DNA of 64,000 nucleotides from Phycisphaerae bacterium (GTDB taxonomy: Bacteria; Planctomycetota; Phycisphaerae; UBA1845; PWPN01), in the NCBI GenBank assembly GCA_012719955.1, contig JAAXZI010000158.1:1-64000 (forward strand), written 5' to 3'. How positions within the stretch are numbered: position 1 is the first letter of the stretch; every line of letters starts with the position of its first letter. The notes under the pieces were generated by a model. That model had not been told where the DNA came from. It did no database searches and was given only the letters and a program-made list of their open reading frames with translations. Shown here in pieces: positions 59,557-61,395 of this stretch. The position numbers were made by a program, and so were the translations under genes.

Positions 59557-61173
59557 TCAATTCTCCCTCTGCTTCCTCCGCTTACTCTGCCCCCTCTCCA
59601 GATCGTTCACCAGCTTGTATTCCACCCCGTCAACCAGGGCGTTCCAGGAAGCCTCGATGATGTTCTCGTTAACCCCGACGGTGCTAAAGATTTCGTGCGT
59701 GTCTTCGTCGAGGAACTCGATGGAGACGCGCACGCGGGCGGCGGTTGCGGCGTGGGGGTTGATCACGCGAACCTTGTAATCGATGAGTCGGATCCGCTCG
59801 ACGGCCGGATAATGAGACCTCAGCGCCCGGACCAGGGCGTGGGCCATGGCGTCCACCGGGCCGTGGCCGTCGGAGACCTGGTGCTCGATCTGGCCTTTGA
59901 CCTGAAGCTTGATAATGACCTCGGTATTGGGCTCGCCGTTGTTGGCGTCGCGCAGGGCCGCCGCCCGCCAGTGCTCCAGTTTCCAGAAAGGTTCGTAGAG
60001 GCCCAGCTCCCGCCGGCAGAGCAGCTCGAAACTGGCCTCGGCCGACTCATACACGTAACCCTGTTCCTCGCGTTCCTGAAGCCGCTTGAGCAGGCGGCGC
60101 TGGATGGCCTTGTCTTCGATATCGAGCTTGCGGCCGATCTTCTCGGCCACGCCGCTGGCCCCGCTGAGCTCGCTGATGAGGATACGCCGGGAATTGCCCA
60201 CGCTGTCGGGGGCCACATGCTCATAGCTGCGGGCCACCCGCCGAACGGCGTGCACGTGCATGCCGCCCTTGTGGGCGAAGGCGGCCTGCCCGACGTAGGG
60301 CTGGCCGTCCACGGGCACGAGATTGGCAACCTCGTAGACGTAGCGGCTTACCTCCGTGAGCTGCTTGAGCCCACCCGGAATCAGCACCTCCTTGTCCAGC
60401 TTGAGAGCCAGATTGGCGGCCGCGGCGATCAGATCCATGTTGCCGCACCGCTCGCCGATGCCGTTGATGGTACCCTGAACATGGGTAGCCCCAACGCGGA
60501 CGGCGGCCAAGGCATTGGCCACGGCCAGCCCGCTGTCGTTGTGCGTATGGATGCCGATCTTCACCGCGACGTGGGGACGGATCGCGGTGATGAACTCCGC
60601 GATGCGCTCCGGCAGGGACCCGCCGTTGGTATCGCAGAGGCACAGGCACTTGGCGCCGGCTTCCTGGGCAGCCAGCAGCGTCTTGAGGGCGTACTCCGGG
60701 TTGGCCGCGTAGCCGTCGAAAAAGTGCTCGGCGTCGTAAATGACCTCGCGACCCTGCCTGGCACAGTAGCGCACGGAGTCGGCGATCATCGCGAGGTTCT
60801 CATCCAGGCTCACGCTCAGCACCTCGCGGACGTGCAGGTCCCAGGTCTTGCCGACGATGGTGACCACCGGCGTGCGGGCCTCGATCAGGGCCTTCATGCC
60901 CTCGTCCTGGTCGGGACGGCAGCCCTTGCGGCGGGTCATCCCAAAGGCGACCGGGCGGGCATGCCGGAGCTTGAGCTGCCGGACGTGCTCGAAAAAGGCG
61001 GCGTCCTTGGCATTGCTGAGCGGGTAGCCGCCCTCGATATAGTCCACCCCGATTTCATCGAGCTTGGCCGCGATCAGCAGCTTGTCCTTGAGGCTCAGAC
61101 TGACGTTCTGGGCCTGCGTGCCGTCGCGGAGGGTGGTGTCATAAAGTTCAATGCGTGGTCGGGCCGTTGCCAT
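59557..61173 (-). CDS. cimA: citramalate synthase
   Basis: Condenses pyruvate with acetyl-CoA to citramalate, opening a threonine-independent route to isoleucine; 538 aa. LeuA/HMGL-like TIM barrel: ELYDTTLRDGTQAQNVSLSLKD, DYIEGGYPLSNAKD, LCLCDTNGG, IHTHNDSGLAVANA (metal His) and INGIGERCGN. FAHKGGMHVHAV is typical for this clade. The C-terminal regulatory LeuA_dimer domain (about 400-530) is present. The double substitution pattern and length fit the CimA branch rather than LeuA or homocitrate synthase. AAGGTGA precedes ATG 61173. An Ile-rich leader peptide and a terminator stand directly upstream. Confidence 0.92.
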   Translation of the reverse strand: MATARPRIELYDTTLRDGTQAQNVSLSLKDKLLIAAKLDEIGVDYIEGGYPLSNAKDAAFFEHVRQLKLRHARPVAFGMTRRKGCRPDQDEGMKALIEARTPVVTIVGKTWDLHVREVLSVSLDENLAMIADSVRYCARQGREVIYDAEHFFDGYAANPEYALKTLLAAQEAGAKCLCLCDTNGGSLPERIAEFITAIRPHVAVKIGIHTHNDSGLAVANALAAVRVGATHVQGTINGIGERCGNMDLIAAAANLALKLDKEVLIPGGLKQLTEVSRYVYEVANLVPVDGQPYVGQAAFAHKGGMHVHAVRRVARSYEHVAPDSVGNSRRILISELSGASGVAEKIGRKLDIEDKAIQRRLLKRLQEREEQGYVYESAEASFELLCRRELGLYEPFWKLEHWRAAALRDANNGEPNTEVIIKLQVKGQIEHQVSDGHGPVDAMAHALVRALRSHYPAVERIRLIDYKVRVINPHAATAARVRVSIEFLDEDTHEIFSTVGVNENIIEASWNALVDGVEYKLVNDLERGQSKRRKQREN

Positions 61174-61195: not shown

Positions 61196-61226
61196 AAAAA
61201 AGGCCCCGCCGTCTGGGGCAGGGCCT
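61196..61226 (-). terminator. cimA attenuator terminator
   Basis: Minus strand: GCCCC-agacggc-GGGGC, then C and TTTTTT (61196-61201); the alternative outer pairing AGGCCC/GGGCCT gives the same end point. Located between the leader peptide and cimA, so it must be read through for cimA to be expressed. GGG-cg-GCAGG just after the leader stop can pair with CCTGC-CCC of the terminator 5' arm, forming an antiterminator. Confidence 0.8.
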
Positions 61227-61254
61227 GCATTCTCCACATCGTGAGCCTGCCGCC

Positions 61255-61356
61255 CTACCCGGTGATGCCGATAATAATGGCGATAATGATGCCGCTGGCG
61301 GCGACTAGGCCGTCATGGGGCCGAAAGGTCGGGATGGAGCGGGTTCCGAAGTTCAT
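61255..61356 (-). CDS. isoleucine-rich leader peptide of cimA
   Basis: 33-codon ORF from ATG 61356 to TAG 61255. Its last twelve residues are GIIIAIIIGITG: seven Ile codons (ATC and ATT) in nine positions, close to the stop. It is followed by mutually exclusive stems and a U-tract terminator before cimA, an isoleucine pathway gene. GCCGCC in the peptide's codons just before the Ile run can pair with GGCGGC just after the stop, the classical 1:2 stem; when a ribosome stalls at Ile codons this is masked and the antiterminator can form. The ribosome site is weak; the promoter suggests a nearly leaderless mRNA. Confidence 0.8.
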   Translation of the reverse strand: MNFGTRSIPTFRPHDGLVAASGIIIAIIIGITG

Positions 61357-61366
61357 GCTCGGCTGT

Positions 61367-61395
61367 ATCTTAGTATCAAGTTCGGCCCGCGCCAA
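61367..61395 (-). promoter_or_regulatory. promoter of the cimA leader
   Basis: Minus strand: TTGGCG (61390-61395), 17-nt spacer, TAAGAT (61367-61372). The predicted start near 61360 is only a few bases before the leader ATG at 61356. Confidence 0.55.

Follow-up and report, generated by a model that had tools for sequence, protein, structure and literature searches.

Attenuation by leader peptides is a classical mode of control of amino acid genes. The DNA between coaD and cimA, the citramalate synthase gene, raises the question of whether such an attenuator controls cimA in this Phycisphaerae bacterium. In the window, by which we mean the whole 64,000-nt stretch that was analysed, cimA occupies positions 59557..61173 of the minus strand, and its product matched the NCBIfam equivalog TIGR00977 with 647 bits (E = 1e-194; cut-off 450). 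The first-pass annotation had placed a promoter, a 33-codon leader, a terminator with a U-tract and a gap of 22 nt in front of this gene. Direct reading showed that all of these coordinates are correct. The coaD gene lies upstream of the cimA leader region in the divergent orientation. Thus, on the cimA strand there is no gene further upstream whose transcription the terminator could end.

The elements described below are on the minus strand. The -35 element, TTGGCG (61390..61395), and the -10 element, TAAGAT (61367..61372), are separated by a spacer of 17 nt. This promoter was absent from the output of the automatic promoter scan of the window at a strict threshold. The motif TTGnCn at the -35 position is common to 10/10 family leaders, at 17-18 nt from the -10 element, and each of the ten shows at least 8 of 12 promoter matches (the shuffle null is 1.9% per sequence). 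The distance from the end of the -10 box to the leader ATG is 10 nt in the window and 6-10 nt in the ten family leaders. Since this distance is so short, the 5' UTR would consist of a few nt, and the leader mRNA would be near-leaderless. The leader peptide ORF, MNFGTRSIPTFRPHDGLVAASGIIIAIIIGITG (61255..61356; 33 codons plus TAG), was read directly, and an Ile-rich ORF is found at the equivalent place in relatives. It begins with the ATG at 61356 and ends with the TAG at 61257-61255, and its last part reads GIIIAIIIGITG. Seven of the nine codons in the regulatory run IIIAIIIGI (61264..61290) encode Ile. The ORF is presumably translated.

The intrinsic terminator consists of a hairpin with 10 pairs, AGGCCCTGCC-CCAGAC-GGCGGGGCCT (61201..61226), and a U-tract of T5 (61196..61200), from which 22 nt remain to the cimA ATG at 61173. 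When the segment 61245-61196 was folded, this terminator was obtained at -22.9 kcal/mol (z = -2.9). When the segment 61280-61214 was folded alone, the minimum-energy structure was the antiterminator GGGUAGGGC:GCCCUGCCC (-28.8 kcal/mol, z = -2.3). The antiterminator 5' arm, GGGTAGGGC (61252..61260), contains the leader stop codon, and the 3' arm, GCCCTGCCC (61216..61224), overlaps the terminator 5' arm; both arms are supported by the minimum-energy fold, the swap test and covariation. Since GCCCUGCC is common to the antiterminator and the terminator, the two structures are mutually exclusive. The minimum free energy of the full leader was ordinary compared with shuffled sequences (z = -1.6), as is hardly surprising when an RNA has two alternative states. 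In the bacterium's own genome, the pattern GTAGGGC-N-CCCTGCC occurs at two other sites, and a leader with a terminator was found at neither.

The first-pass annotation had proposed GGG-cg-GCAGG:CCTGC-CCC as the antiterminator. This pairing is possible, but GGGUAGGGC:GCCCUGCCC folds best and is conserved; as the 5' arm, GGG-cg-GCAGG was replaced by GGGUAGGGC, which contains the leader stop codon. Three mutually exclusive segments had also been described, with GCCGCC (61297..61302) as the first. Pairing of this candidate optional segment 1 (protector) with 61254-61249 (GCCGCC:GGCGGC) is possible in the window, but its relatives in the family have not conserved it (swap z = -2.2). The conserved cimA device is predicted to be one of two alternative hairpins, not three. 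A protector (1:2) hairpin is present in the textbook trp case and is not defining for every attenuator.

Comparison of relatives for conserved Ile codons and stems had been set beforehand as the refuting test, and the finding survived it. In the own family, cimA was found in 12 of 13 genomes, and the layout was detected in 10 of these 12, the own genome included. The same layout was observed in L012, from another family of the order. In 11 relatives, 46 of the 132 codons from -4 to -15 encode Ile, against a background of 5.1% (p = 5e-26). Four family members (L003, L006, L009 and L010) keep just two or three Ile codons in the run. L004 and L005, which belong to one genus (g4), have a terminator before cimA and no Ile leader. 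Their terminator is strong and lies 51 nt upstream of cimA, and promoter-like TTGTCA/TAAAAG elements are found close upstream.

We also analyzed the phylum, with 79 usable cimA upstream regions among 80 fetched. The detector required an ORF with at least four Ile in ten codons that ends just before a terminator. Such an arrangement was found in 28/79 regions versus 3/395 dinucleotide-shuffled controls; about two thirds of the sampled regions failed the detector. In the phylum-wide test of upstream ORFs, Ile was the most enriched amino acid of all. In the 64-kb window, one of eight terminator-like sites, namely the cimA one, follows an Ile-rich short ORF. Among 109 terminator-like sites in 981 kb of other fetched loci (both strands of 80 loci), none outside the cimA upstream regions is accompanied by an Ile-rich ORF. 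When 20 cimA-type upstream loci in which no leader had been detected were scanned with Rfam, T-boxes were absent. The hits in these 20 loci were to one tRNA and to one c-di-GMP-I riboswitch on the other strand. The c-di-GMP-I aptamer at L153:142-281 (-), upstream of a planctomycete cimA, scored 44.5 bits (gathering 35) and is opposite to the locus strand.

The co-evolution of the alternative pairings was analyzed by a swap test with 54 non-redundant leaders, which were picked by an Ile ORF plus terminator or, in the case of 11 from the own order, by the family core. Pairing of the antiterminator arms with the terminator arms of their own leaders scored 20.7, as compared with 15.3 +/- 0.5 for the terminator arms of others (z = 10.9). 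None of the 20000 permutations was as good, and the effect persisted without the GGTAGGG-type leaders. When the test was confined to UGA-type leaders, the difference was not significant. The best antiterminator helix overlaps the stop codon in 37 of the 54 leaders. Furthermore, the stop codon tracks the terminator arm: without correction for kinship, UAG occurs mostly with CCCUG/CCCUA and UGA mostly with CUCAGG. Such a match is what pairing of the arm with the stop codon would require.

Alignment A2 consists of 28 related sequences that were partly selected for clear arms, and its covariation numbers are supportive and not probabilities: 22 double-change cells were counted in the antiterminator helix versus 9.6 +/- 2.1 in shuffled alignments (0/500). 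Slid helix registers gave lower scores, and the outermost antiterminator pair is C-G in 10 and G-C in 8 sequences. In 11 relatives, 100% of the terminator cells are paired, with double changes in two pairs. At the level of sequence comparison, these analyses demonstrate that the parts are present, that Ile is enriched and that the alternative pairings have co-evolved.

In the leaders, Ile codons cluster between -6 and -13, counted back from the stop, and few occur at -1 to -5. The usual ribosome footprint reaches some 15 nt past the A site. Thus, a ribosome stalled at -6 to -13 would leave the arm free, and a ribosome at the stop codon would cover it. At -1 to -5, a stalled ribosome would already cover the arm. 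The Ile codons of the family leaders are ATT and ATC in a ratio of 27:18, versus 23:262 in cimA (p = 1e-14). The leaders may be biased towards ATT either because decoding is then slower or because GC-rich structure is avoided. No threonine dehydratase (ilvA, TIGR01127) was found above the cut-off in the 13 family genomes. Thus, CimA appears to be the entry to isoleucine.

End-product codons, a terminator before the gene, a supported exclusive antiterminator and the arm geometry of an attenuator were all found at this locus. The element is very probably a leader-peptide (ribosome-mediated) transcription attenuator that ties cimA expression to charged tRNA-Ile. Attenuation of cimA cued by Ile had already been proposed in the first reading of the sequence, and all of the comparative evidence supports it. 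Transcription would start at about 61357-61361, practically at the leader ATG, with the ribosome trailing RNA polymerase. When isoleucine is plentiful, the ribosome would pass the seven Ile codons, reach the UAG and cover the antiterminator 5' arm; GCCCUGCC would then pair downstream as the terminator, and transcription would end before cimA. When isoleucine is scarce, the ribosome would stall about 15-35 nt upstream and leave the arm GGGUAGGGC free. This arm would pair with GCCCUGCCC, no terminator would form, and cimA would be transcribed. The stalling, the termination efficiency and the response in vivo are what we infer.

The leuA gene, which is paralogous to cimA (NF002086 and TIGR00973 matches above the cut-off), possesses a counterpart. 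In the same genomes, the own included, a Leu-rich leader and a terminator are located upstream of leuA, and Leu accounts for 62 of the 150 leader codons. The family leuA upstream regions are L227-L236, and that of the own genome is G000:C144. The antiterminator arm, GCGUAGGG, is located 20 nt before the stop codon, and its partner is CCCUACGC. The arm encodes Arg-Val-Gly near the end of the peptide. The arms are compensated, being GCGUGGGG and CCCCACGC in the own genome and GCGCGGGG and CCCCGCGC in L236, and the swap test with ten sequences gave p = 0.03. The distance from the key codon to the antiterminator arm is the same, with medians of 24 nt for cimA and 22 nt for leuA, although the two stop offsets are 17 nt apart. 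In the L235 leuA leader, the TAG is inside the antiterminator arm (CGTAGGGC), as in cimA, instead of the usual position about 20 nt further on. In 5 of 20 other leuA upstream regions of the phylum, a Leu-rich leader with a terminator was found. No such element was detected in the ilvB, ilvD and trpE upstream regions of the family. Thus, CimA and LeuA look like two committed branch steps that are separately regulated.

The same RNA switch would be expected if the short ORF encoded a nascent-chain arrest peptide that senses free isoleucine or another ligand and not a shortage of charged tRNA-Ile. Arrest peptides require specific residues, whereas this peptide is not conserved beyond its Ile residues and the ORF lengths vary widely. 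Since the amino acid changes to Leu at leuA and the biased choice of Ile codons points to decoding, we consider an arrest peptide very unlikely.

The terminator might instead act constitutively, or it might be an unrelated signal between the divergent genes coaD and cimA, beside which an Ile-rich ORF occurs by coincidence. Genus g4 might suggest this, since L004 and L005 have a terminator in front of cimA but no Ile leader. However, with coaD divergent, there is nothing upstream on the cimA strand to terminate, the combination of an Ile ORF and a terminator is missing from the 981-kb background, and the terminator and the antiterminator arm have evolved together. These results make coincidence highly improbable. 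A T-box or a metabolite riboswitch could also act through the cimA terminator, and in Firmicutes T-boxes are common at genes for branched-chain amino acids. Nevertheless, no Rfam family, the T-box included, reached its gathering threshold in the window, and the sole weak match was to Thr_leader (E 0.84), itself a leader-peptide attenuator. Moreover, the leader ORF starts near the 5' end of the transcript and leaves little room for an aptamer. An aptamer-based switch therefore has next to no probability, and a leader-peptide attenuator is the reading that we follow below.

Like the trp, his, leu, thr and ilv attenuators of Proteobacteria, the cimA element has an ORF with end-product codons, an exclusive antiterminator and terminator, and a terminator before the gene. 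It differs from them in its target, since cimA does not appear among the controlled genes in the literature covered, in its pure Ile run, in the stop codon inside the antiterminator arm, in the lack of a conserved protector hairpin, in the near-leaderless mRNA and in its Planctomycetota host. The element may be regarded as a well-supported candidate for the known class of leader-peptide attenuators, with an unusual layout. The whole element aligned weakly with Rfam Thr_leader (RF00506) at 22.3 bits, below the gathering threshold of 55; RF00506 elements carry Thr and Ile codons before the enterobacterial thr operon, unlike the pure-Ile cimA leader.

The actinobacterial ilvB and leuA leader peptides (PMC1262725, PMC10272879, PMC8079986) also combine a short ORF of branched-chain codons with a terminator. 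However, Ile, Leu and Val codons occur together in the ilvB peptides, whereas here a separate amino acid belongs to each branch enzyme and ilvB of the planctomycete family has no detected leader. Several leader peptides of Streptomyces are transcribed leaderless (PMC8079986). Branched-chain leader ORFs precede ilvB in several phyla (PMC10272879, PMC1262725); the ilvB-OMG and Leptospira ilvB motifs (PMC10272879) are upstream ORFs of this kind in other phyla, but at ilvB and not at cimA. The authors of a survey from 2010 wrote that they knew of no leader-peptide attenuator demonstrated beyond Proteobacteria and Actinobacteria prior to the case in Firmicutes that they presented (PMC2965389). In the open-access literature covered here, we found no attenuator for cimA and no leader-peptide attenuator in Planctomycetota, an absence that is not proof.

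The cimA element would extend classical attenuation to a phylum and a gene for which this search found none. We suggest tentatively that Planctomycetota may use a distinct phylum-wide attenuator, in which a near-leaderless leader is combined with a two-hairpin switch, the antiterminator contains the leader's stop codon (cimA) or lies just before it (leuA), and translation termination is the off-signal; CimA would be cued by Ile and LeuA by Leu, and the shared ilv genes would be without such control. A genome in which one enzyme has a pure-Ile leader and a related enzyme has a Leu-rich one offers a clean natural test of codon specificity. The stop codon inside the antiterminator illustrates how compact a switch of this kind may be. 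Furthermore, end-product control of the threonine-independent isoleucine route is predicted, which would be useful in metabolic engineering.

Ile-rich leaders with a terminator were also observed at cimA homologues in two records titled Deltaproteobacteria, L078 (upstream of 292) and L110 (upstream of 2501). In both, the terminator arm pairs with GGCCTGATAATG inside the leader. Thus, cimA attenuators may extend beyond Planctomycetota.
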